Source of the DNA: Armatimonadetes bacterium Uphvl-Ar2
GTDB lineage: Bacteria > Armatimonadota > Fimbriimonadia > Fimbriimonadales > Fimbriimonadaceae
Length of the DNA stretch: 64,000 bases
Direction: 5' to 3'
Assembly (NCBI GenBank): GCA_002162095.1
Contig: CP021424.1
Coordinates: forward strand, 744,001 to 808,000
Position 1 is the first letter of the stretch. Each line of letters starts with the position of its first letter. The position numbers and the translations under genes were made by a program. Of the stretch, positions 4,167 through 45,603 are shown in pieces. The notes beneath the pieces are model-generated. The model was not told where the DNA came from. It was given only the letters and a program-made list of their open reading frames with translations, and ran no database searches.

Positions 4167-5666
4167 ATGCGCATGTGGATGCTGGATGTGGCGCGCGAGC
4201 AGTGCGTCACCCGCGAGCACCTGTTCCGATACGCCACCGAGACCCTAGACGCGGGCTACGACGCCCTGGGGCTGTACCTGGAACACCGTTTCGCCTACCC
4301 CAGCACCCCCTGGAGCCACGGCACCGGCGTCCTAACCCCGGAAACCATCCGGGCCGTGCGCAGCGAGTTCCCCAGCCTGCGCCTGGTGCCGTTTGTGAAC
4401 CTCCTCGGGCACGTGGAAGGGTTCCTCTACACCGAGCCTGGCCACCGCTGGGCCGAAGAAGAAATGAAGGGTCTGCAGGCGTGCCCGAGCAACCCGGACT
4501 TTGTGCGCTTTGCTGAGGGCATCCTCGATGACACCCTGGCCATCTTCGATGACGAATGGGTGCACATCGGTGGGGATGAAACCGCGCAACTGGGCAAATG
4601 CCCGACCTGCCAAGCCCGCGTGGACGCCCACCCCGGCGACGGCAAGGCCGCGCTCTACTCCGAACACTTCGGGCCGCTGGCTGCGCGCGTGGTGCAGGCC
4701 GGGCGGACCCCCGCCGTGTGGGGCGACATGTTCCTAGAGCACCCCGATGCCCTGGCCGCCATGCCCCGCGAGACGGTGCTGTTCGACTGGCAATACTTCA
4801 ACGGCGTGGCCGAAACGGCCGCCCGGCTGGGCGCGCACGGCCACCGGGTGGTGGGCTGCCCTGCACTGCACGTTTACAACGCGGCCTGGATGCACCTGGG
4901 CCCGAGCGACGAGAACATCCGCCAGGTGGCCCGCGATGTGCAAGCCCTGAACCTGGAAGGCGTGTGCCTGACCACCTGGGAGACCACGATGTTCAGCAGC
5001 TACGACACGCTTTTGCCGGCAGTGCGGGCGGCGCGGGCAATCATGGATGACCCCGAGGGGGCCCCGAGCTTGCTATCGGCTTACGATTCCGAGTGGGCGA
5101 ACCTGATGGGGGTGGCACTTAATGAACTCGGTGGGGTGTGGGGGCACAGCCGCCACCGCCACAAGTTGAAGTCGCGGATGTTCCTTTATGCCGACCCGTT
5201 CCTGGCCGGCCAGCACCACGCAGAGGAGATCTGCGGGCCGATGGGCGACCAAGCGCTGGCACTTGTTGAGCGCGCCTTTGCCGCCACCGACGATGAAGCC
5301 GAGAAGGGCGTGGCCCTGGCCTGCCGCAGCATGATCGAGTTTGTGCGGATGGCGCACGTGGCGCGGTTGCTCTACGCCGAAGGGCAAACCGAGCGGGCGG
5401 TGAGCGCTCTGGCCCCCACGCGGTATCTGTTCGAGACGCTGGAGCGGACGGCGAAGCGGACGCACGAGCGCATCGGCGGGAGCCTAGCCGACATCGAGCG
5501 GGCGCGGCGGGCCAAAGCGCACGTGGAGACGGTGATCCAGCGGATTCGGCAGTACGGGGATGGGTCGCTGGGCTACGTCCCGGCGTGGAACGTGCTGACC
5601 CACCCCAACTTTATGCCGCACGACCAGGCGAGCTGGTGGATTGTGAATTCTTGGGGTCGCCCGTGA
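4167..5666 (+). CDS. GH20-like beta-N-acetylhexosaminidase, cytoplasmic
   Basis: This 499-aa protein has a glycoside hydrolase family 20 TIM barrel. The key signature WVHIGGDET carries the substrate-assisted catalytic Asp-Glu pair (about residues 137-138) and is followed by a CPTC pair. It has no signal peptide and no GH20b N-terminal domain, so it is shorter at the N-terminus than the secreted GH20 at 39469 and probably acts on intracellular GlcNAc-containing fragments. The C-terminal third is helical and charged. Its last 127 or so codons are duplicated almost exactly at 7414-7796. It converges on the A-family gene at 5680 with a 13-nt gap. Confidence 0.82.
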   Translation: MRMWMLDVAREQCVTREHLFRYATETLDAGYDALGLYLEHRFAYPSTPWSHGTGVLTPETIRAVRSEFPSLRLVPFVNLLGHVEGFLYTEPGHRWAEEEMKGLQACPSNPDFVRFAEGILDDTLAIFDDEWVHIGGDETAQLGKCPTCQARVDAHPGDGKAALYSEHFGPLAARVVQAGRTPAVWGDMFLEHPDALAAMPRETVLFDWQYFNGVAETAARLGAHGHRVVGCPALHVYNAAWMHLGPSDENIRQVARDVQALNLEGVCLTTWETTMFSSYDTLLPAVRAARAIMDDPEGAPSLLSAYDSEWANLMGVALNELGGVWGHSRHRHKLKSRMFLYADPFLAGQHHAEEICGPMGDQALALVERAFAATDDEAEKGVALACRSMIEFVRMAHVARLLYAEGQTERAVSALAPTRYLFETLERTAKRTHERIGGSLADIERARRAKAHVETVIQRIRQYGDGSLGYVPAWNVLTHPNFMPHDQASWWIVNSWGRP

Positions 5667-5679
5667 GAGATCCTCGGGT

Positions 5680-6831
5680 TTAGCCAGGTCTAATGATTCG
5701 CATCAATTTGCCTGTATGCCCGGACCACATTTGCCCTCCTGGCATCGGAGTAACCCAATCCTCTCCACAGTCGGCGTACAGCATGAGAGTTCCCGTCAGG
5801 CTCTCTTCCACTGTAAGATCCCGCCAAACGGGGCCGAATCGCCTCGCAATGATGGGAACGTTCATAAGTTCTGCCCGCGTGAACTTCGCCCTGCCATCGT
5901 CGCCAATTCGCTCCGCAAGTTCTTGCGGGAAGCCCTCTTCCATCAAGCCCTTGATGACCAATTCCCGATAGGTTTTCGCGGCATCCTTGACAATCGTGCG
6001 GCGGTCCTGAACGAAGAACGGTATCGTATCGAGAACTTCGCGCATTCCTTCCAAGATTTCTGTAGTCGTGAACTTGCCTTTCAAGAAGACTTTGGGTTCT
6101 CCGAGCCGCGCATCGTAGCGGCACGTGTATCCCATTCCGGAGATAATGGCAATCACTTGCTGGACGGTCAACAACCGACCTTCGCCAAAATCCAGTGACT
6201 TTGGAAGCTCCTCAGTTGTGGTCTTCGGCGTCATCCACCCTGCTTGGCCAGATGGTCGTACACTTGACTGTCGATTATCCTTCTCAGGAATCGTAAAGAT
6301 TGTTCGATCTTCTCCTTGATCAAGAATGGTAATCCTAGCTTTGATAAAAAGTGGAACATCCTTTCGGTCTTGAACGGCCTGATTCACGCTTGGGTTGATC
6401 CGAGTAACAGACAAGATTAATTCGTGTTCCTCTGCCGAAAGCTGCTGAAAGCTTAGACCCTTAAACAACGCGTCCGACCGAGTCCGGACGAAATCCCACA
6501 GTCCGGCCCCTTCCCCGACTGCCATCAAAGAAGGTACGTCTTTACGCCGCGCCAGAACATCCGCGCGGCCCACCACCACATGGCGGCGCAACGACATCTG
6601 GGCGACTTCGGCCAGGCTTTCCGCCCGGATCGTCCCGTCCTCAGCCGTACTGACATCGGACGGATACCAGTTGTGAGCATCAAGAATCAATGGTCCTGGG
6701 TGGGCAACCCACAGCTCACGCAGTTCATCCTGATTAAGTGTGGAGCCAGGGTCAACTGGGGTGGCCGGCTGGGCCATGCTCTGACAACAAAGCATGGCCG
6801 CCAGAATCGGCATCAACGATGACGCTCGCAT
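5680..6831 (-). CDS. Family A secreted protein A1
   Basis: This 383-aa exported protein of unknown function is one of four paralogues here. The frame is open upstream to 6870, but ATG 6831 (MRASSLMPILAAMLCCQSMAQ) begins a clean signal peptide 11 nt after the B1 stop. The mature protein has three conserved blocks: HPGPLILDAHNW; VGRADVLARR; and LDFGEGRLL followed by RYDARLGEPKVFLKGKF. The third block resembles the small STN/N-domain found before secretin and TonB-receptor barrels; that assignment is inference. The mature part is about 95% identical to A2 at 7810-8988. GC is clearly lower than in the GH20 gene next to it. It is probably translated with B1 as an operon. Confidence 0.8.
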   Translation of the reverse strand: MRASSLMPILAAMLCCQSMAQPATPVDPGSTLNQDELRELWVAHPGPLILDAHNWYPSDVSTAEDGTIRAESLAEVAQMSLRRHVVVGRADVLARRKDVPSLMAVGEGAGLWDFVRTRSDALFKGLSFQQLSAEEHELILSVTRINPSVNQAVQDRKDVPLFIKARITILDQGEDRTIFTIPEKDNRQSSVRPSGQAGWMTPKTTTEELPKSLDFGEGRLLTVQQVIAIISGMGYTCRYDARLGEPKVFLKGKFTTTEILEGMREVLDTIPFFVQDRRTIVKDAAKTYRELVIKGLMEEGFPQELAERIGDDGRAKFTRAELMNVPIIARRFGPVWRDLTVEESLTGTLMLYADCGEDWVTPMPGGQMWSGHTGKLMRIIRPG

Positions 6832-6842
6832 GGCTTCGAAGC

Positions 6843-7313
6843 TTACTCTCCCGCGCCAGTGATACTGCATGGGTCTACTTCGATGTGGTGCGTTAGGTAG
6901 TTGTACGGCAATGTCACACTTTGCTCGTATGGTGTCGTTGGCAACAACGTCGGCATACTCGGATAAGGGTGATCGCTGTTTTGGAGAAAGAAGTACACGG
7001 TCCCATAGAAGCCGATCCCGTAATCGTACTCAAAGGTTTTCGGCTCAGTGTTAAAGTTCGTCGAGTACGTCATCGCCGGGAGCGGTGATTGGGTCGTGTA
7101 CTTACCTGGCGTTCCCGTTTGCCATCGTTGCCATGACCCAAAGATCGGAGTCACGGTATGGGAAACGGTACCCCGACCTGAGCAGCCGCTGAACGGCTTC
7201 GATCCGATGTAAATCTTCCAGGGAATCCTCTCGTCGTCAATTGGGTTGTACGTCTGAGCAAAGGCACAGCTCAGAATGGAAAGGGTCCCGATCGCTACTA
7301 ATGCAAGTCGCAT
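6843..7313 (-). CDS. Family B secreted protein B1
   Basis: This 156-aa protein has a clear signal peptide (MRLALVAIGTLSILSCAFAQ). The mature part is rich in Tyr, Pro, Thr and aromatic residues, with YNPIDDERIPWKIYIGSKPF near the start and GIGFYGTVYFFLQN in the second half. Two Cys residues in the first half-loop and tail (SGCSG and DPCSI) match those of paralogue B2 at 13862-14347, suggesting one disulfide. It is the first gene of a B1-A1 pair. The predicted -10 box lies 6 nt before the ATG with no ribosome site, so the mRNA may be leaderless. The function is unknown. Confidence 0.75.
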   Translation of the reverse strand: MRLALVAIGTLSILSCAFAQTYNPIDDERIPWKIYIGSKPFSGCSGRGTVSHTVTPIFGSWQRWQTGTPGKYTTQSPLPAMTYSTNFNTEPKTFEYDYGIGFYGTVYFFLQNSDHPYPSMPTLLPTTPYEQSVTLPYNYLTHHIEVDPCSITGAGE

Positions 7314-7319
7314 AAAGGA

Positions 7320-7349
7320 ACGCTACCCCCCCCACCTCAGGCGTGTCAA
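7320..7349 (-). promoter_or_regulatory. Promoter of B1-A1 with G8 spacer tract
   Basis: On the minus strand there is a perfect TTGACA (7344-7349), an 18-nt spacer ending in eight G (7326-7333), then TAGCGT (7320-7325) and 6 nt to the ATG at 7313. The same arrangement occurs upstream of B2. The G run lies directly against the -10 box, where a change in its length would change promoter spacing. Confidence 0.6.
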
Positions 7350-7413
7350 GGTCTGCGCGAAAATCTTAACAAAAAAGTTGCCCCGCGACCAATTTGAACC
7401 TAAATCTACTTTC

Positions 7414-7796
7414 CCACCGACGATGAAGCCGAGAAGGGCGTGGCCCTGGCCTGCCGAAGCATGGTCGAGTTTGTGCGGATGGCGCACTTGGCGCACCTGC
7501 TTTACGCCGAGGGGCAAACCGAGCGGGCGGTGAGCGCTCTGGCCCCCACGCGGTATCTGTTTGAGACGCTGGAGCGGACGGCGAAGCGGACGCACGAGCG
7601 CATCGGCGGGAGCCTAGCCGACATCGAGCGGGCGCGGCGGGCCAAAGCGCACGTGGAGACGGTGATCCAGCGGATTCGGCAGTACGGGGATGGGTCGCTG
7701 GGCTACGTCCCGGCGTGGAACGTGCTGACCCACCCCAACTTTATGCCGCACGACCAGGCGAGCTGGTGGATTGTCAACGCTTGGGGTCGCCCGTGA
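7414..7796 (+). pseudogene. Duplicated 3' fragment of the GH20 gene
   Basis: This fragment matches 5284-5666 almost base for base and keeps the reading frame to the TGA, but it lacks the catalytic barrel and any upstream start region. It encodes only the last 127 or so residues. Differences from copy 1 cluster in its first half (for example AHLAHLLYAEG against AHVARLLYAEG). It is joined directly to the remnant of the reductase gene tail. It is a by-product of the tandem duplication, not a functional enzyme; an in-frame GTG at 7440 could at most give a short product. Confidence 0.85.
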
Positions 7797-7809
7797 GACA
7801 ATCTCGGGT

Positions 7810-8988
7810 TTAGCCAGGTCTAATGATTCGCATCAATATGCCTGTATGCCCGGACCACATTTGCCCGCCTGGCATTGGGGTAACCCAATCCTCTCCGCAA
7901 TCGGCGTAAAGCATGAGAGTTCCCGTCAGGCTCTCTTCCACTGTAAGATCCTGCCAAACGGGGCCGAATCGCCTCGCGATAATGGGAACGTTCATAAGTT
8001 CTGCTCGCGTAAACTTCGCCCTGCCATCGTCGCCAATGCGCTCCGCAAGTTCTTGAGGGAAACCCTCTTCCATCAAGCCCTTGATGACCAATTCCCGATA
8101 GGTTTTCGTGGCATCCTTGACAATCGCACGGCGGTCCTGAACGAAGAACGGAATCGTATCAAGAACCTCGCGCATTCCCTCCAAGATTTCCGTAGTCGTG
8201 AACTTACCTTTCAAGAAAACTTTGGGTTCTCCGAGCCGCGCGTCGTAGCGGCACGTGTATCCCATTCCGGAGAGAATGGCTACAATCTGTTGAACGGACA
8301 ATAACCGACCTTCGCCGAAATCCAGTGACTTTGGAAGCTCCTCAGTAGTTGTCTTCGGCGTCATCCACTCTGCTTGTCCAGATGGTCGTATACTTGGCTG
8401 CCGATTATCCTTCTCAGGAATCGTAAAGAATGTCCGATCTTCTCCCTGATCAAGAATCGTAATTCTGGCCTTAATGAAGAGAGGAACATCCTTCCGGTCT
8501 TGAACGGCCTGATTCACACTAGCGTTGGTCCGTGTGACAGACAAGATTAACTCGTGCTCGTCCGCCGTAAGCTGCTGAAAGCTTAGACCCTTAAACAACG
8601 CGTCCGACCGAGTCCGGACGAAATCCCACAGTCCGGCCCCTTCCCCGACTGCCATCAAGGAAGGTACGTCCTTCCGTCTCGCCAAAACATCCGCGCGGCC
8701 CACCACCACATGGCGGCGCAGCGACATCTGGGCGACTTCCGCCAGGCTTTCCGCCCGGATCGTCCCGTCCTCCGCTGTGCTGACATCGGACGGATACCAG
8801 TTATGCGCATCGAGAATCAGTGGCCCTGGGTGGGCAACCCAAAGCTCGCGCAGTTCATCCTGATTGAGTGTGGATCCGGTATCAACAGGGGTGGACGACT
8901 GACTCTGCGATCTTGCTGATTGACCGAGGGAAACCCCGAAAAGGCAGCAACAAAATGCAATCAGGTAGGTGATACGTAAGATCGACAT
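7810..8988 (-). CDS. Family A secreted protein A2
   Basis: This 392-aa exported paralogue of A1 has about 17 substitutions in roughly 350 mature residues. ATG 8988 follows TTGGAGTCTGGAA, a good ribosome site, and gives the signal peptide MSILRITYLIAFCCCLFGVS. The frame stays open to 9030, but the longer start has no such site. All family blocks are present: HPGPLILDAHNW, VGRADVLARR, LDFGEGRLL, RYDARLGEPKVFLKG and FFVQDRR. Its signal peptide and upstream region are unrelated to those of A1, and it has no B partner, so it probably uses a different promoter. The function is unknown. Confidence 0.8.
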   Translation of the reverse strand: MSILRITYLIAFCCCLFGVSLGQSARSQSQSSTPVDTGSTLNQDELRELWVAHPGPLILDAHNWYPSDVSTAEDGTIRAESLAEVAQMSLRRHVVVGRADVLARRKDVPSLMAVGEGAGLWDFVRTRSDALFKGLSFQQLTADEHELILSVTRTNASVNQAVQDRKDVPLFIKARITILDQGEDRTFFTIPEKDNRQPSIRPSGQAEWMTPKTTTEELPKSLDFGEGRLLSVQQIVAILSGMGYTCRYDARLGEPKVFLKGKFTTTEILEGMREVLDTIPFFVQDRRAIVKDATKTYRELVIKGLMEEGFPQELAERIGDDGRAKFTRAELMNVPIIARRFGPVWQDLTVEESLTGTLMLYADCGEDWVTPMPGGQMWSGHTGILMRIIRPG

Positions 8989-9083
8989 TTCCAGACTCCA
9001 ACGAGTTGGCAGTCTAGCACTATCCAACACGCTCTCGGCAAGCTCAATTCAGACAAAAATCTTGGCCAGCGACCAATTTGAAC

Positions 9084-28590: not shown

Positions 28591-30105
28591 TTACTTGGCC
28601 CAGTCCAGCACGGCTTCAAGCTCGTTCTTGATCGCGTTCAAGAACTCCGCCCCGCCCACGCCGTTGATCAGCCGGTGGTCAATCGTGATGCCCACGTTCA
28701 CGCAGCGCTGGAGCTTAATCTCCGGCCCGTCGTTGGCCAGGCCGTTGTACGGCTCACCCAGGAAGATCGTCGCCACGCCCGGCGGCACCACCACGGCCAT
28801 CGCCTCGCGAATGTTGTACGCCTGCATGTTGGTCAGGCTCACCGTTACCCCTTCGTGGGCTTGGTCGCGGCCGTCGCGGGCCTGGTTGATGCTGTCGCGG
28901 GCTTGGCCAGCGAAGCTCTTCCAGTCCAGCGTGTCGGCGTTGTCCACCACCGCCACCACCAGTTCGTCACCAGGCAGAGCCACGGCAATGCCGAGGTTCA
29001 CGTGGTCGTAGGTGCGCACGGTGTGGTCACCCACTAGCGTGCTGCGGCTAATCGGGTGCTGGGCGGCGGCGCGGGCCACCGCGTAGGCAAAGTAGGTGAA
29101 GGCGCTGGGCGCGAACTCGTCGCCGCGAGCCTTGATTTCGGCGCGCAGGGATTCCAGCGGACCCCAATTGGCCACCACGCTCATCATGCCGGGCACCACC
29201 AGTTGGTTGCCGCGCTGCAGGCGGCTAGCCAGAATGCGCTGCTTGCCTTCGAACGGCTTCTCTTGGTACTTGCGGTTGCCCTGGTTGGCACTGGCACTCG
29301 CGGTGGGCGCGGCGCTCGGCGCACCCCCGGCCAGGAAGGCGTCCACATCCGCCGGCATCAGCGGCTTGCCGGTCACCGGCAGGGCTTCAATCTGGTCGTC
29401 GCTCAGGCCCTTAGCCTTGGCGTGGGCGCGGGTGCGGGGCGGCACATCGCGGCGGCGGGCACCGCCCGTTGCGGCGGCGGGGGCGGCACTCGGGGCAGCG
29501 GCAATGGTAGCGGGAGCGGGGGCATGACCCACGGGGGCATCGCTCACCACTTCGTCGGTGGTCATCACCAGCACTTCGGCGCCGATGGGCAAAACTTGAT
29601 CTTCTTCGGCCAGCCAGCGCACCAGCGTGCCCGCGTGCGGGGACTCCACGTCCATCACCGCCTTGTCGGTTTCCATCTGGTAGATGGCTTCGTCGCGGCG
29701 GATGGTGTCGCCGGGCTGCTTCAGCTTCTTCACCAGGCGGGCTTCTTGCAGGCCTTCACCAATCATCGGAATGCGCAAGTGAATCTCGTTCGCCGCCGAA
29801 GAAGTGGCGGGTGCCGCCGGGGCTTCCGGGGTCGCGGCGACGGGGGCGGCACTGGCGCCGGTTCCGGCCACATCCAGCAATCCCACCTGCTCGCCGATGG
29901 GTAATACGTCGTCCACCTTCGCCGTCCAGGCCACCAGGGTGCCTTCAAACGGAGACTCGACGTCCATCACGGCCTTGTCCGTCTCCATCTGGTAGATCGG
30001 TTCGTCTCGCTTCACAAAGTCGCCGGGCTGCTTCAAAAACGCGACCACACGGGCCTCTTGCAGCCCTTCACCGATCATGGGAATGCGAAGTGATTCTTGC
30101 GCCAT
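28591..30105 (-). CDS. 2-oxoacid dehydrogenase E2 (dihydrolipoamide acyltransferase)
   Basis: This 504-aa protein is the core acyltransferase of a pyruvate or branched-chain 2-oxoacid dehydrogenase complex. It has two lipoyl domains, each with the lipoylated Lys in METDKAVMDVESP. Ala/Pro-rich linkers and a peripheral-subunit-binding domain follow (PPRTRAHAKAKGLSDDQIEAL). The C-terminal catalytic domain ends in ITIDHRLINGVGGAEFLNAI. The active-site His is present; the usual Asp of HRxxDG is Asn, which also occurs in known active E2p enzymes. E1 and E3 are not adjacent. The downstream genes favour branched-chain acid use. Confidence 0.92.
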   Translation of the reverse strand: MAQESLRIPMIGEGLQEARVVAFLKQPGDFVKRDEPIYQMETDKAVMDVESPFEGTLVAWTAKVDDVLPIGEQVGLLDVAGTGASAAPVAATPEAPAAPATSSAANEIHLRIPMIGEGLQEARLVKKLKQPGDTIRRDEAIYQMETDKAVMDVESPHAGTLVRWLAEEDQVLPIGAEVLVMTTDEVVSDAPVGHAPAPATIAAAPSAAPAAATGGARRRDVPPRTRAHAKAKGLSDDQIEALPVTGKPLMPADVDAFLAGGAPSAAPTASASANQGNRKYQEKPFEGKQRILASRLQRGNQLVVPGMMSVVANWGPLESLRAEIKARGDEFAPSAFTYFAYAVARAAAQHPISRSTLVGDHTVRTYDHVNLGIAVALPGDELVVAVVDNADTLDWKSFAGQARDSINQARDGRDQAHEGVTVSLTNMQAYNIREAMAVVVPPGVATIFLGEPYNGLANDGPEIKLQRCVNVGITIDHRLINGVGGAEFLNAIKNELEAVLDWAK

Positions 30106-39411: not shown

Positions 39412-39468
39412 GCGTTCGGGTTTACCAGTTACGAGCGCGAAGGTGCGGTAAGGTCACGCCCACTTCTC

Positions 39469-41571
39469 ATGTTCCGGTGGCTTGGTTTTCTTTTGGTGGG
39501 GTTGTGCGCGGTGGCGAGCGCCCAGGAACTTCTGCCCACGCCGCAGGAGATGACGCGCACCCGGCAGATTGCGCCCGTGAGCGTGCGCCTGAACGTGAAC
39601 TCCACGGATTTTCCGGTGCAAACCCAGGCGTTTCGGCAGGATTGGTCGGTGGCCAGCGCGGCGGGTGCGCCGCAGCTCATCTTGATGAAAGACCCGACGT
39701 TGCCCGAAGAGGGCTATCGCATCGAGTTCGGCGGAACCATTGAAGTACGAGCAAGCACCCCCACGGGGGCGGCCTGGGGACTGCAGACCCTTGGCCAGAT
39801 GTTGGCCTCGGGCACCAAATCGGCCGTGGTGACTGACGCCCCCGATACACCCTTCCGGTGCGTGATGATTGACGTCGCCCGCCGCTACCACAGCATCTCC
39901 ACGCTCAAACGATTGGTGCGTTGGGCCGCGCTGGGCAAGGTCCGCTTCATTCAACTTCACCTCACCGACGACCAGAACTGGATGCTGCCGAGCACCGTCG
40001 TCCCCGGGATCGACAAGCTCAACACTCACCAGCGGCCCGCCTATACCCGGGCTGAATTGGAGGAACTCCAGGCGTTCGCTACCGCGCGCGGCGTCACCCT
40101 CATCCCCGAAGTTGAGTTCCCCGGCCACGCCGCCATCCTCTGCAAGTACGACCCGGCCAAGTACCGGCTGGCGGGGTCAGCGTCCGAGAACTGCATCAAC
40201 TTTGGCTCCGAAGCGGTGCGGAAGACCTGCCGGGACATCCTCGCCGAAACCGCCGCCATCTTCAAGGATTCGCCTTACATCCACTTCGGGGGTGACGAAG
40301 CGTGGTACCCCGACGCGGACAAGGACCCCCAGTTCCGCACGGCGATGGACCGGCTTGGCCCCGGGGCCGACGCCAACCGGGTCTTCATTGACTTTGTGGG
40401 GGACATGGCCCAAGAAGTGGTGAAGCAGGGCAAAACCCCGCTGGTGTGGGAGGGATTCCCGCGATCCGACTTTGCCAAGGAGAGGATCCCGGCGGAGACG
40501 GTTGTCATCGCCTGGGAAAATCACTACTACCCCGCCACTCAGCTTGTGGAGGACGGCTTCAAGGTCATCAATGCCGGTTGGGACCCTTACTATGTGGTCA
40601 ACCACTACCCTTGGGATGCCTACACTCTGGTGCCGCTGGCACGACTCTACAACCACGACCCGGACGTATTCGGCATCGTGGCGTGGAACGACCCCGCGCT
40701 GAGTGCGGCGAAGATCGGGCCGGGGCTGTACGGTTCGCTCATGCCCTGGTGGGAGGGCCACGAATGGAACACCTTGGCCGTGATGCCGGAGCGCATTCTG
40801 GCCTTTGGGTGCCGCTTGTGGAACCGGGAGTGCGAAAGTGGCTACTTGGGCTTCCGGCGCCGGGCGCGGCACTGGCTGGGCACCGTAGCCCGGGCTTCGC
40901 AACCCTTCGAATTGGTGATTGAGGGGACTCGGGCAGAGAACCCCGAGCAATTCACCGCCCATTCCCGGGTGTCGGCGAAGTCGGAGGCGGGCTTCCATTT
41001 TGCGTACCGCACCGACACTCTCGTGCCCACCCGCGCGGATATCCGAGATTTCGTAACCCTCGACCAGAGCGGAGTTGTGACGGTGCAGGCCTTTCGGGAT
41101 GGCATTCCCGTGGGAGAAGCCGCCTTCGTGCGCTTGAACAAGGTGACGGAAGTGCCGAACCTGGCCCGGGGAGCCAAGGCGTGGAGTTCCGCCCCCACTG
41201 ACCCCCAATTCGCTGCCGACCTGGTGACGGACGGGGTGGCGGATGACATCGGCTCCTTTTGGATGTGCTACCCCTTGCCCGCCGACCTTACGGTCGATTT
41301 GGGGCGGGCGGTGGAGGCCCGGCGCGTGGAGATCGTCGCCTTCTACGCCGCCGGGAGTGCGCTGCAGTACCGAGTCCAAGTCAGCGCCGATGGCTTGACT
41401 TGGGAAGAAGTGGCGGACGCTTCCGCGAACACGACCGGCGCCAAGGCTGAGGGATACGTTCACCGGTTCAGCCCGCGCCCGGTGCGGTATGTGAGGGTGC
41501 AGGCCCTGCGTTCGCTCCAGCACCCCAGCACGATGCCTCGCATCCACGAGATTCGGTTGTTCAACGACTGA
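39469..41571 (+). CDS. Secreted GH20 beta-N-acetylhexosaminidase with discoidin-like domain
   Basis: This 700-aa exported enzyme removes terminal GlcNAc/GalNAc from glycans or chitin fragments. It has the signal peptide MFRWLGFLLVGLCAVASAQ, then a GH20b zincin-like N-domain (LPTPQEMTRTR to GAAWGLQTLGQML). The GH20 barrel starts FRCVMIDVARRYHS and carries the catalytic pair in YIHFGGDEAW (about D276-E277). A beta linker and a C-terminal F5/8 type C/CBM32-like domain (ADLTVDLGRAVEARRVEIV, VRYVRVQALRSL) follow. The long open frame upstream of 39469 is antisense to gmhA and is not coding. Confidence 0.92.
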   Translation: MFRWLGFLLVGLCAVASAQELLPTPQEMTRTRQIAPVSVRLNVNSTDFPVQTQAFRQDWSVASAAGAPQLILMKDPTLPEEGYRIEFGGTIEVRASTPTGAAWGLQTLGQMLASGTKSAVVTDAPDTPFRCVMIDVARRYHSISTLKRLVRWAALGKVRFIQLHLTDDQNWMLPSTVVPGIDKLNTHQRPAYTRAELEELQAFATARGVTLIPEVEFPGHAAILCKYDPAKYRLAGSASENCINFGSEAVRKTCRDILAETAAIFKDSPYIHFGGDEAWYPDADKDPQFRTAMDRLGPGADANRVFIDFVGDMAQEVVKQGKTPLVWEGFPRSDFAKERIPAETVVIAWENHYYPATQLVEDGFKVINAGWDPYYVVNHYPWDAYTLVPLARLYNHDPDVFGIVAWNDPALSAAKIGPGLYGSLMPWWEGHEWNTLAVMPERILAFGCRLWNRECESGYLGFRRRARHWLGTVARASQPFELVIEGTRAENPEQFTAHSRVSAKSEAGFHFAYRTDTLVPTRADIRDFVTLDQSGVVTVQAFRDGIPVGEAAFVRLNKVTEVPNLARGAKAWSSAPTDPQFAADLVTDGVADDIGSFWMCYPLPADLTVDLGRAVEARRVEIVAFYAAGSALQYRVQVSADGLTWEEVADASANTTGAKAEGYVHRFSPRPVRYVRVQALRSLQHPSTMPRIHEIRLFND

Positions 41572-41573
41572 AA

Positions 41574-41594
41574 TCAGGCACAGCACGGCCTGCA
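41574..41594 (+). repeat. Direct repeat, left copy, beside the nuclease-helicase island
   Basis: This 21-base word TCAGGCACAGCACGGCCTGC plus one base lies directly after the GH20 stop. It matches 43725-43745 at all but about three positions, in the same orientation. The two copies flank a single low-GC gene. Confidence 0.6.
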
Positions 41595-41694
41595 ACGGCC
41601 CTTGCAAGCAACCGGAATCCAGTTGTCTAGACCTGTATTCATTCAATCAGAACATGACTTGACTTCAGCTGTGCAATAGTTGTGGTAATCCGAG

Positions 41695-43722
41695 ATGCTC
41701 GATGATCGAACACTTCAAATAAAATCTGATCTGCTGTCGGGAAGAGCTTACTATTCCGCGAGAATTGGAGATTTCCTCGAATCAACTGAAAGCGAAATCC
41801 TATCTTCGCTCGTACGATCGTCTTCCTTCGCCGTCGAGCAGACCCAGCGTGATGCTTGGCTGATGCAGATTGAAGTCATGCGCTCTTCCCTTCGAGACGC
41901 TGATAAGCACGGACTCGTCGCATTTGAGTTTTATGTGCCACGCATGGGCAAACGCATTGACGTGCTGGTCGTTGCTGGAAGCGTGGTTCACGTAATCGAG
42001 TTCAAAGTCGGGGACGCCACATACAGCTCCGATGCACTTACACAGGTCTTCGATTATGCGTTAGACATGAAAAACTTCCACAGTACGTCTCACGCGGTCA
42101 CGGTCGCTCCCATTCTTGTAGCCACTCTCGCTCCGGCAGCCGAGATTGTTCCGACCATTACTCGGGACTACGACGGGGTTGTTCGCCCATTGAAAGCAAA
42201 TGGCACATCACTGGCCGAAGTCATGCAGTTCGTTGAGAGATGCTCAGATGGGCCGACAATCGATGCCGAGGTATGGGCAGCGGGCAGCTATAAACCAACT
42301 CCCACGATCATTGAGGCTGCCAAAGCACTCTATAATGGGCACGGCGTTGAAGATATAACTCGCCGGGAAGCCGCGGCGATCAACTTGTCTCAGACATCTC
42401 GGAAGGTAGAAGAGATCATCCATGGTGCCCGTAAGAACAAGCACAAGGCTATTTGCTTCGTGACAGGGGTGCCAGGCGCTGGGAAAACTCTTGTGGGTCT
42501 CGACATTGCGAACAAGCACTTCGATCCAACCAGTGACTTGTACAGCGTATTCCTTTCGGGAAACGGACCCCTTGTGGCCATCCTTTGCGAGGCTCTTGCA
42601 CGAGATAAGGTTGATCGGTCGAAGGAAATAGGTACATCACTTAAGGTAGGGCAAGCTCGCAGCGAGGTGAAGTCGTTTGTCCAGAATGTCCACCACTTCC
42701 GGGATGAGTGCATCCGTGATAGTGACAAGCCTCCTGTGGAGCACGTAGCGCTCTTTGACGAAGCTCAGCGCGCCTGGAATCAGGAACAGACCTCATCTTT
42801 CATGCGGCGCAAAAAGGGCAACTCAAACTTCACGATGTCAGAACCTGCATTCTTAATTTCCTGTATGGACCGGCACGACGATTGGGCCGTAATCGTGTGT
42901 CTTGTAGGCGGAGGGCAAGAAATCAACACTGGAGAAGCAGGAATTGGTGAGTGGTTGAGAGCCATTCGATCGGATTTCCCTGACTGGCATGTTCACCTCT
43001 CGCCAAACCTCCACGACTCAGAATACGAGGCGGGATCTACCCTCGATCTTCTCAGTAGTCATGCCCATGTTCATACCCACGAGAGCCTTCACTTATCAGT
43101 GTCAATGCGCTCATTTCGGGCCGAGCACGTCTCAAGTTGGGTCAAAGCGATGCTCGATGCTGACGTCGATGCTGCCCGTACGGCATGGTCTCGAATCCAT
43201 GTCAAGTATCCGATCTATCTGACCAGAGACTTGAACGCAGCCAAGAGTTGGGTTCGAGCGTGTGCCCGAGGCTCTGAGCGATACGGCATCGTTGTGTCAT
43301 CCCAAGCACAAAGGCTCAAGCCAGAGGGGATTGATGTTCGTTATGACATTGACCCCGTGCACTGGTTCCTGCACCCGAGAGAAGACGTTCGTAGTTCGTA
43401 CTACTTGGAGGATGCTGCAACCGAGTTTGATGTGCAGGGCCTCGAACTTGACTGGACTTGTGTCGTCTGGGACGGCGATCTCCGATTCGGCTCCGACGGT
43501 TGGGAGCACTGGAATTTCAAAGGGCCACGCTGGCAAAGGGTCAAGACAGAGCCTCGACAAGCTTTCCTGAAAAATGCGTACCGGGTGTTGTTGACGCGAG
43601 CGCGCCAAGGAATGGTGATCGTAGTACCCCGAGGCAACCCTGACGATCCAACACGCGATCCGTCGATCTATGACGGGACGTATCAGTACCTCAAGGGACT
43701 CGGGCTTCGAGAGCTAGCCTAG
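41695..43722 (+). CDS. PD-(D/E)XK nuclease plus DUF2075 helicase-like protein
   Basis: This 675-aa protein probably combines nuclease and ATPase activity on DNA or RNA. The N-terminal domain has the nuclease signature RIDVLVVAGSVVHVIEFK (D89, E102, K104). The C-terminal superfamily 1-like part is DUF2075: Walker A GVPGAGKT (258-265), Walker B VALFDEAQR (D355-E356), then GGGQEINTGEAGIGEWLRAI, AATEFDVQGLELDW and YRVLLTRARQGMVIVVP. Such proteins are frequent in defence islands. GC is clearly lower than in both neighbours, it is a single gene, and near-identical repeats and a tRNA gene flank it. These signs suggest horizontal transfer. Confidence 0.85.
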   Translation: MLDDRTLQIKSDLLSGRAYYSARIGDFLESTESEILSSLVRSSSFAVEQTQRDAWLMQIEVMRSSLRDADKHGLVAFEFYVPRMGKRIDVLVVAGSVVHVIEFKVGDATYSSDALTQVFDYALDMKNFHSTSHAVTVAPILVATLAPAAEIVPTITRDYDGVVRPLKANGTSLAEVMQFVERCSDGPTIDAEVWAAGSYKPTPTIIEAAKALYNGHGVEDITRREAAAINLSQTSRKVEEIIHGARKNKHKAICFVTGVPGAGKTLVGLDIANKHFDPTSDLYSVFLSGNGPLVAILCEALARDKVDRSKEIGTSLKVGQARSEVKSFVQNVHHFRDECIRDSDKPPVEHVALFDEAQRAWNQEQTSSFMRRKKGNSNFTMSEPAFLISCMDRHDDWAVIVCLVGGGQEINTGEAGIGEWLRAIRSDFPDWHVHLSPNLHDSEYEAGSTLDLLSSHAHVHTHESLHLSVSMRSFRAEHVSSWVKAMLDADVDAARTAWSRIHVKYPIYLTRDLNAAKSWVRACARGSERYGIVVSSQAQRLKPEGIDVRYDIDPVHWFLHPREDVRSSYYLEDAATEFDVQGLELDWTCVVWDGDLRFGSDGWEHWNFKGPRWQRVKTEPRQAFLKNAYRVLLTRARQGMVIVVPRGNPDDPTRDPSIYDGTYQYLKGLGLRELA

Positions 43723-43724
43723 AT

Positions 43725-43745
43725 TCAGGCGCAGCACGTCCTGCG
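43725..43745 (+). repeat. Direct repeat, right copy, beside the nuclease-helicase island
   Basis: TCAGGCGCAGCACGTCCTGCG lies directly after the nuclease-helicase stop and matches the left copy at 41574. This copy is also a near-perfect palindrome (GGCGCAG with CTGCGCC), so it might also serve as a terminator hairpin. Confidence 0.6.
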
Positions 43746-43766
43746 CCGAGGTGGGAAAGGGGAAGG

Positions 43767-43843
<77 letters not shown>

Positions 43844-43980
43844 GCGAGCCGTCAATATACCCCACGCCCTGCAGGCCCATGAATCGGGTAGGCCCGTCAC
43901 ACGTCAGTACCCTCGGTAGACAAGGCAGGACTCACCTCGGTATTCTCACGGGTAAGTCTGCTTTGCGGACGAGACGACTT

Positions 43981-45603
43981 ATGCGGTGGACAACCCTTCT
44001 TCTTGGCCTCATGGCGGTCGGTGCGGCGCACGCGGACTTCGACGGCCCGGCTCCTCTCGCTTGGCGCTGGTCAGGCTCGACCTCCGTGGTCCCGAGCGGA
44101 TCGCCCATGATGGACGCCGACGTGATCTACGCGGCGGTCGGCAATCGCATGTATGCCATCAGCCGGGAAACGGGCGGGCAACTGTGGCGCTACCCGGCCG
44201 GGGCACCGATCCAGGCCAACTTCCGAACTGGTGCGCACATGAGCGGCAACATGATGGTGGCTGCCGCCGATAACCGCAACGTCTACGCCGTGGACCGCGT
44301 GACGGGCGCCGAAATGTGGGTTTACCAAAGCCCGTTTGGCATCCAGGGCACACCCCGCGTGGTGGGTAACTCCGTGGCCGTGCCGCTGGAAGGCGGGCGC
44401 ATGGTGGTCCTGAATGGCAGCACCGGGGCTGTCGATGGCGAAGCCTTTGACCTGCCGGGTGGCCACAGTGGCCAATTCGCGGTCGCGGGCAGCTCGCTGG
44501 TTTACGTTTCCGAAGCCGGTCAACTGACCTCCTTCGATCCGGGCAGCCGCCGCGTGGAGTGGCAGCAGCGACTCGAGCGCTTCTCGCGCACCACGCCGCC
44601 CGTGGTGCTCGAAGGCACGATCTACGTGAATTCCGGTTCATATGCCGTCGCCATCCGTTCCAGCAACGGCCGTGTGGCTTGGCAGAGCAATGTGGGTGAA
44701 GACCTCGTCTACTCCCCGGCCGTGAACGAAGACTATGTGGGCGTGGTCGCCGCTGATGGCACCATCCAGATTCTCAATCGAGACAACGGTCGCCCGGTAA
44801 CGGGTCCTAAGCTTCGCACGCAGCTTCCCCCGGCCACGTCGCCCTCCTTTGTGGGCAAGATGTTTATCACCAACGGCGTGAACGGCTCGGTCAACGTGAT
44901 TGACCCCGTCACGGAGCAACTGGTGTTCACCTATCGCATTCCGATGCCTCCGGTGACTACGGATCCGAACGCCCCGACCGGCCCGGGCGCAGGCCGTGGT
45001 GCCGGTGGTGGCGGCGGTAGCGGCGCCGGTGCTGGTGCGGGTGCAGGTGACGACGGTGGCCAAAACGCCGGCGGCAACAATGACGACGACGAAACCAAGG
45101 TGGACTACGTGGCCGCTTCCGGTCCGGCCATTGGCATGGGCGATTCGCTCATCGTCATGGCCCGCGACGGTAGCATCCTCAACTTCGACAAGAATCTGGG
45201 CATTGACCTCACGGCCCCGTTCGTGGAAATGCAATGGCCGGGTTCGGGCGAAGTCATCTGGGCACGCCCGCCGCTCAACTTCCTCTTCAACATCGCCGAC
45301 TTCGGCTCCGGTCTCAATGCGGCGAGCGTGAACGTGACCATTAATGGTCGCAAATACGAGCACGTACTGACGCCGGACGGACGCCTGTTCGTCGTCATTG
45401 GGAACTCGGCGCCGAACCCGCCGCTCGCGAACGGTCGCCAAGAAATCGTGGTCAGTGCCTCCGACTGGCTCGGCAACGAGATTAAGAAGACCTTCGTAGT
45501 AGTGGCGGACGTGAGCCTGGCCCCGCCGGGACCGAACCAAGGTGGCAACACTGGTCCGGGTGCGGGGGCTGGCGGTGGACGCGGCCGAGGTAGCGGCGGC
45601 TAA
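43981..45603 (+). CDS. BamB-like PQQ-repeat beta-propeller protein
   Basis: This 540-aa exported protein has the signal peptide MRWTTLLLGLMAVGAAHA; the frame is open upstream to 43879, but ATG 43981 starts the signal. The propeller blades show the repeat YAISRETGGQLWRYPAGAP, YAVDRVTGAEMWVYQS and VAIRSSNGRVAWQSNVGEDLVYSP. A Gly/Ala-rich, then Asp/Asn-rich linker (about nt 44980-45095) separates it from a beta domain (FVEMQWPGSGEVI, GRQEIVVSASDWLG) and a Gly-rich tail. BamB-type proteins scaffold outer-membrane assembly; a role in binding surface structures is equally possible. Confidence 0.82.
   Translation: MRWTTLLLGLMAVGAAHADFDGPAPLAWRWSGSTSVVPSGSPMMDADVIYAAVGNRMYAISRETGGQLWRYPAGAPIQANFRTGAHMSGNMMVAAADNRNVYAVDRVTGAEMWVYQSPFGIQGTPRVVGNSVAVPLEGGRMVVLNGSTGAVDGEAFDLPGGHSGQFAVAGSSLVYVSEAGQLTSFDPGSRRVEWQQRLERFSRTTPPVVLEGTIYVNSGSYAVAIRSSNGRVAWQSNVGEDLVYSPAVNEDYVGVVAADGTIQILNRDNGRPVTGPKLRTQLPPATSPSFVGKMFITNGVNGSVNVIDPVTEQLVFTYRIPMPPVTTDPNAPTGPGAGRGAGGGGGSGAGAGAGAGDDGGQNAGGNNDDDETKVDYVAASGPAIGMGDSLIVMARDGSILNFDKNLGIDLTAPFVEMQWPGSGEVIWARPPLNFLFNIADFGSGLNAASVNVTINGRKYEHVLTPDGRLFVVIGNSAPNPPLANGRQEIVVSASDWLGNEIKKTFVVVADVSLAPPGPNQGGNTGPGAGAGGGRGRGSGG

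Follow-up and report, generated by a model that had tools for sequence, protein, structure and literature searches.

PDC-S41 is already catalogued in PADLOC as a candidate single-gene phage defence family, and a literature search found no experiment on it. The means by which defence genes spread when no mobility gene is visible are left open, too, in the available part of a survey of E. coli defence islands (PMC10121019). Xer dif modules, as described in the accessible part of one source, have 28-bp sites with 11-bp Xer arms whose inner ends are ATAA ... TTAT (PMC12907356). Here we describe a lone PDC-S41 gene that lies between two copies of a 20-bp word in a member of the little-studied Fimbriimonadaceae (Armatimonadota), together with the matching locus of a congener. 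The two loci form a clean natural record of the site before and after one defence-type gene arrived, with base-exact junctions. As the family is a catalogued candidate, we take the locus as a clearly marked example of something known; were the unit shown to move, it would help to account for the spread of lone defence genes that have no mobility gene in sight.

The insert, its repeats and the empty site

The host genome is a single contig of 2.63 Mb, and the window, the stretch of DNA analysed here, covers 64 kb. Comparison of the window with congener G001 delimited an insert of 2,151 bp (41574-43724), made up of the left repeat copy and the interior, which holds a single intact gene (675 aa) and is missing from the collinear locus of G001. 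The resident left neighbour, on the plus strand, encodes a GH20 hexosaminidase with an F5/8 type C domain (39460-41571; assigned by Pfam), the protein being 89% identical in G001. The left copy of the repeat (TCAGGCACAGCACGGCCTGC, 41574-41593, plus strand) lies 2 bases 3' of the GH20 stop codon and is followed by a leader of 45.5% GC (41594-41694, plus strand), in which a promoter scan found no sigma-70-like promoter; promoter and terminator scanning gave one match each, not above shuffles, and a repeat scan found no tandem repeats. The inserted gene (41695-43722, plus strand) is of PDC-S41 type, with a putative PD-(D/E)XK-type nuclease and a Schlafen-group-3 SF1 helicase. The right copy (TCAGGCGCAGCACGTCCTGC, 43725-43744, plus strand) lies 2 bases 3' of its stop codon. 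A resident tRNA-Ile (GAT; 43767-43843, minus strand) lies 22 bases past the right copy and adjoins the empty site in G001 too; beyond it is a resident gene for a PQQ/beta-propeller protein (43879-45603, plus strand). The first-pass annotation had described a low-GC single gene next to tRNA-Ile, and it was right on each point.

The same annotation had reported a near-identical word of 21 bases on both sides of the gene. The near-identity stands, and the length is corrected to 20 bases, of which 18 are identical. Only these two copies of the word were found in the window at up to 3 mismatches (0.06 expected) and in the whole genome at up to 2 mismatches. A looser word pattern hit four more genomic places with 2 mismatches, and the reversed control pattern one. 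Base shuffling of both 200-bp flanks, repeated 1000 times, never produced a match of 18/20. When real sequence was tiled as a control (615 tiles, the focal site and a duplicated gene at 5.2-6.8 kb being set aside from the count), one further tile (23200) also reached 18, so the pair by itself is not unique. It is the empty site, not the repeat pair alone, that settles the reality of the insertion. Other repetition was seen in the window: minus-strand paralogues of 396 and 406 aa at 5680-6870 and 7810-9030, 92.7% identical over 1,488 bp of DNA and the product of a gene duplication, and an approximately 207-bp sequence directly repeated, with 75% identity, at 29580-29786 and 29892-30097.

G001 belongs to the same genus and is the nearest genome compared. 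Both flanks are collinear there, with one copy of the word and nothing between them, as the first-pass annotation had anticipated for a related genome. Homology to G001 extends up to 41593 on the left flank and begins at 43725 on the right, and the overlap of the two in G001 is exactly one word copy. Over its 20 positions this copy mismatches the left one at 2 and the right one at 4, and there are 2 mismatches between the left and right copies themselves. When the interior and one copy were removed, 11.9 kb (11,874 columns) aligned to G001 as one piece at 90.4% identity. No other large indels relative to G001 were seen in 14.5-34 kb (a comparison broken by contig ends) or in 36-50 kb. The insertion is real.

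In the second congener, G002, the tRNA-Ile and the right flank are kept, and the left side is other sequence with a sulfatase-like gene (named by eye). Because the left neighbour differs there, G002 is no outgroup for the junction, and gain in the source genome, as against precise loss in G001, is likely rather than proved. A second tRNA-Ile-like call (5674-5748), possibly false, was noted near the true tRNA-Ile of G002 (L081, ~5650-6050). The empty-site finding was not repeated in two pairs from the same family: in G158 versus G019, 4.3 kb is replaced by 6.7 kb with no empty site, and in G150 versus G022 the locus is rearranged.

On the strand of the tRNA, the right copy and its outer flank pair perfectly over 7 bp to form a hairpin (43728-43747, minus strand; GGCGCAG-6 nt-CTGCGCC; -15.0 kcal/mol), between the insertion site and the tRNA-Ile. 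The hairpin is weaker at the G001 site (-10.7 kcal/mol), and is gone at the left copy, which takes a different fold (-8.5 kcal/mol). Possibly it terminates the tRNA-side transcript; it has no T-rich tail, and the terminator scan did not call it. The site does not fit a tRNA-targeting genomic island, as the repeat lies outside the tRNA gene (22 bases off) and the insert is without an integrase. In a tRNA scan of 16 distinct homologue loci, whose flanks were of unequal length, a tRNA lay within 1 kb at one (L104, tRNA-Met ~0.2 kb away); at L102 a tRNA-Leu was found ~4 kb from the homologue.

The inserted protein and its kin

The protein matches the PADLOC PDC-S41 profile (PDLC05014) with an E value of 3e-283 and 939 bits, over residues 17-674 of 675 and profile positions 3-653 of 657. 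Residues 251-645 match Pfam PF09848 (SLFN-g3_helicase; E 5.5e-79, 266.4 bits against a cut-off of 24), which we take to be the DUF2075 of the first-pass annotation. At E values up to 0.001 the only Pfam matches were PF09848 and AAA_22, with no nuclease family among them. NCBIfam held no family for the protein, and a sequence search of the PDB returned 3dnx alone (E 0.096).

The catalytic motif of PD-(D/E)XK enzymes is D...E-x-K plus Q..Y. Nuclease-type residues R87, D89, E102-x-K104, Q117 and Y121 are invariant in 11/11 aligned relatives, as are the helicase motifs (Walker A 258-265, DEAQ 355-358, LLTRAR 632-637) with the exception of A262 in Walker A. The alignment was made without the Ramlibacter sequence L031, whose reading has 3 stops. 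That PDC-S41 relative (L031, ~6001-7969) has in-frame stops and falls into two pieces, probably through breakage of the gene or sequencing error. An AlphaFold2 model built from 8 sequences was fair to mediocre (mean pLDDT 66.9, pTM 0.62). In this model (pLDDT 66.9), residues 13-183 superpose on Can2 (Z 8.2, rmsd 4.2, 141 aligned) and residues 30-182 on McrC in McrBC (Z 6.9, rmsd 4.7, 134 aligned), a Z score below 8 being one that may reflect a common arrangement. Residues 213-675 superpose on UvrD (Z 10.0, rmsd 5.0, 304 aligned), and the helicase part of the model on SLFN11 (Z 8.3, rmsd 5.4, 281 aligned); the top Foldseek row was SLFN14 (E 1.3e-4). Read from its motifs and the model, the N-terminus appears to be a PD-(D/E)XK-type nuclease. 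The nuclease-helicase pairing proposed in the first-pass annotation is in keeping with the invariant motifs and the PF09848 match.

Composition and phylogeny both mark the gene as foreign. Its GC content is 53.2% (insert 53.0%) against 62.6% for the window, and third-position GC is 56% as compared with 81% in the GH20 gene and 76% in the PQQ neighbour. The first-pass annotation had named as counter-evidence a gene in the same place in all relatives, or the lack of any empty site. The gene is instead absent from both congeners (G001, G002) and present in 5/61 relatives, its own genome counted, two of the five being weak or partial matches (G035, G036); across the phylum it was found in 17/291 genomes at E values up to 1e-60. 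The nearest kin are in Planctomycetota, namely L023 (72% identity) and L030 (76%, a partial piece), while full-length copies from the same family (L028, L091) are just 55-57% identical to the window protein. The 25-row tree places the window protein beside two Planctomycetota rows (support 100/99), apart from the same-family proteins; those relatives that came from genome contigs were found by exact peptide patterns, so the sample is uneven. The low GC, the absence from both congeners and the Planctomycetota kin together indicate horizontal acquisition from outside. We conclude that this is a horizontally acquired lone PDC-S41 gene.

Defence genes beside PDC-S41 relatives

Chosen neighbours, rather than all ORFs, were scanned with PADLOC at 9 homologue loci. 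Beside the homologue were found a type II helicase, REase, Vsr and PDC-S31 at L082 (MT836127), PDC-M60C at L026, HNH at L031, and a C5 methylase with a partial PDC-M33A at L102 (G158). None of the chosen neighbours had a PADLOC match at the other 5/9 loci (L023, L024, L103/L039, L104, L105), and no defence gene was seen adjoining the focal gene, whose neighbours were identified by Pfam only. Over part of its range PDC-S41 looks like a defence gene, and over the rest like a lone gene, which the focal copy also is. The defence link drawn by the first-pass annotation is borne out by the PDC-S41 match and by the restriction-modification genes that adjoin some relatives. Judged from sequence, the inserted enzyme is probably anti-phage.

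Between flanks ~97% identical in G158 and G019, PDC-S41 and a C5 methylase (L102, 5738-10068) stand opposite a type III restriction-modification system and RhuM (PDC-S05; L115, 2231-8920). Defence sets have been exchanged at one site in this pair of sister genomes. PDC-S41 is worth testing as a real defence enzyme because the set that contains it replaces a type III restriction system.

Two further loci were noted. Two Persicobacter plasmids of one strain (L083, CP012854.1; L084, CP012865.1) carry the same stretch of at least 3.3 kb (99.9% identity), in which two small unknown genes accompany a PDC-S41 relative; a gene for an rve/Mu-type transposase follows in one plasmid. In the focal genome, ~258 kb before the window (L079, G000:C1:482000-500000), PADLOC detected a DISARM-type set (DrmA, DrmB, DrmC, DrmMI). 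A PDC-S11 gene and a tyrosine integrase of 413 aa are nearby, and a second integrase lies ~23 kb on. The DrmA of this set had no match in G001 or G002, in a search run without a positive control. L079 looks like an integrated defence island.

Routes of arrival and comparison with known systems

We consider it fairly likely that a lone PDC-S41 gene from outside the lineage was integrated once, as a piece of 2,151 bp, and that its product is an enzyme protecting against phage or foreign nucleic acid. The piece would have entered at the 20-bp word, in a hairpin-forming stretch between the GH20 gene and the tRNA-Ile, and its integration would have left the word on both sides of the inserted gene. 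The cell could be defended in this way: the SF1 helicase part may load onto invading DNA (or RNA) and travel along it, and cutting of the invader, or of host nucleic acid to stop infection, may fall to the RecB/McrC/Can2-like nuclease part. Less certain is the manner of integration: a recombinase acting in trans may have made one crossover at the word, or microhomology may have driven an illegitimate recombination. In our judgement illegitimate integration weighs about as much as recombination in trans at the hairpin, and both weigh more than target duplication by a transposase since lost.

Several described elements were compared with the insert and rejected. A DDE-type insertion sequence does not agree with the lack of a transposase ORF and of terminal inverted repeats, the best end-to-end inverted match being 8/12. 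An Xer dif/pdif module was set aside as neither repeat copy contains ATAA or TTAT and there are no dif-like arms. The core words of attC sites are RYYYAAC and GTTRRRY. An integron gene cassette was dismissed because there are no attC cores at the right end and a pair-like word at 41559 falls within the GH20 gene.

The exact 20-bp boundaries and the empty site with one copy would suit a one-gene mobile cassette in which the word serves as attL/attR and the hairpin as recombinase site, with a tyrosine recombinase that belongs to the host, a phage or an ICE acting in trans. The word overlaps a palindromic hairpin adjoining a tRNA, and integrases favour places next to tRNA genes; the two copies differ at 2/20 positions, as crossed-over att sites may. 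The first-pass annotation had stated that no integrase is present, and the insert is indeed a single gene with no integrase or transposase ORF. The genome has four tyrosine recombinases, which count in favour of action in trans, none of them near the insert (the nearest ~276 kb away), and no serine resolvase-type recombinases. As a repeatable unit, the one-gene mobile cassette that the annotation had offered is not supported: a tRNA lies beside this site and within 1 kb at only 1/16 loci, and the 20-mer test, which at the focal locus gave 18/20 with 0/200 shuffles as high, found similar flanking repeats above shuffles at 0/15 other distinct homologue loci. That test left out the partial L030, L040 and L041, counted L101/L103 once as repeats of L028/L039, and at L027 covered the only 163 bases that lie downstream. 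The word, moreover, has no further close genomic copy and so gives no sign of a shared att site, the insertion is not inside the tRNA, dif-like arms are missing, and the 3 pattern matches among viral contigs included none confirmed as a relative. A cassette moved in trans is, on this evidence, doubtful. That PDC-S41 genes are a whole class of integrase-free single-gene defence cassettes, entering tRNA-adjacent hairpin sites via a borrowed recombinase with the 20-bp word as recombination site, we regard as highly unlikely.

Illegitimate or microhomology-mediated integration, with a word common to donor and host or duplicated in repair and no mobile unit at all, is consistent with the single-gene size, with the lack of a mobility gene and of terminal inverted repeats, and with relatives that have no conserved repeats; several homologues are lone genes amid household genes, with varying neighbours. 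Twenty bases are nevertheless long for chance microhomology and the boundaries are very clean, and we rate this route little higher than the cassette. A duplicated target sequence is also what a transposase, since lost or acting in trans, would leave, but 20 bp is unusually long for a target-site duplication, and the insert offers neither terminal inverted repeats (8/12 at best) nor a transposase ORF; we think this improbable. It is unlikely, too, that the gene is ancestral and that a precise deletion from one direct repeat to the other removed it from G001. Slippage between the repeats would leave one copy, and the copies differ at 2/20 positions where the flanks of the two genomes differ by ~10%, so that insertion and split could be of similar age. 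G002, however, is also without the gene, the closest kin are in another phylum, the GC content is not ameliorated, and an original insertion would still be required.

With respect to described proteins, the inserted protein matches PDC-S41 of PADLOC over its full length, and no difference in the protein was found; the flanking repeats and the empty site belong to the focal locus only. The helicase part matches the Schlafen group 3 helicases (PF09848; SLFN11, SLFN14) by profile and fold. The inserted protein differs from Schlafen proper in its predicted PD-(D/E)XK-type N-terminus, and the Schlafen core RNase domain is absent among its Pfam matches. The nuclease-helicase defence proteins Nhi and AbiO match weakly, at Walker A only (E 6e-5 to 9e-5), with no full-length relation. 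With respect to described loci, Xer dif modules and CALIN cassettes, in the accessible parts of their descriptions, likewise place a gene without its own recombinase between short repeats (PMC12907356, PMC11389934); unlike theirs, the focal repeat is without AT-rich Xer arms and without attC cores. The E. coli defence islands, in the available part of that survey, resemble the focal locus in that a defence-type insert is present or absent between core genes and its mobility is unclear, whereas here the insert is a single gene, with no integrase and with clean 20-bp repeats (PMC10121019).
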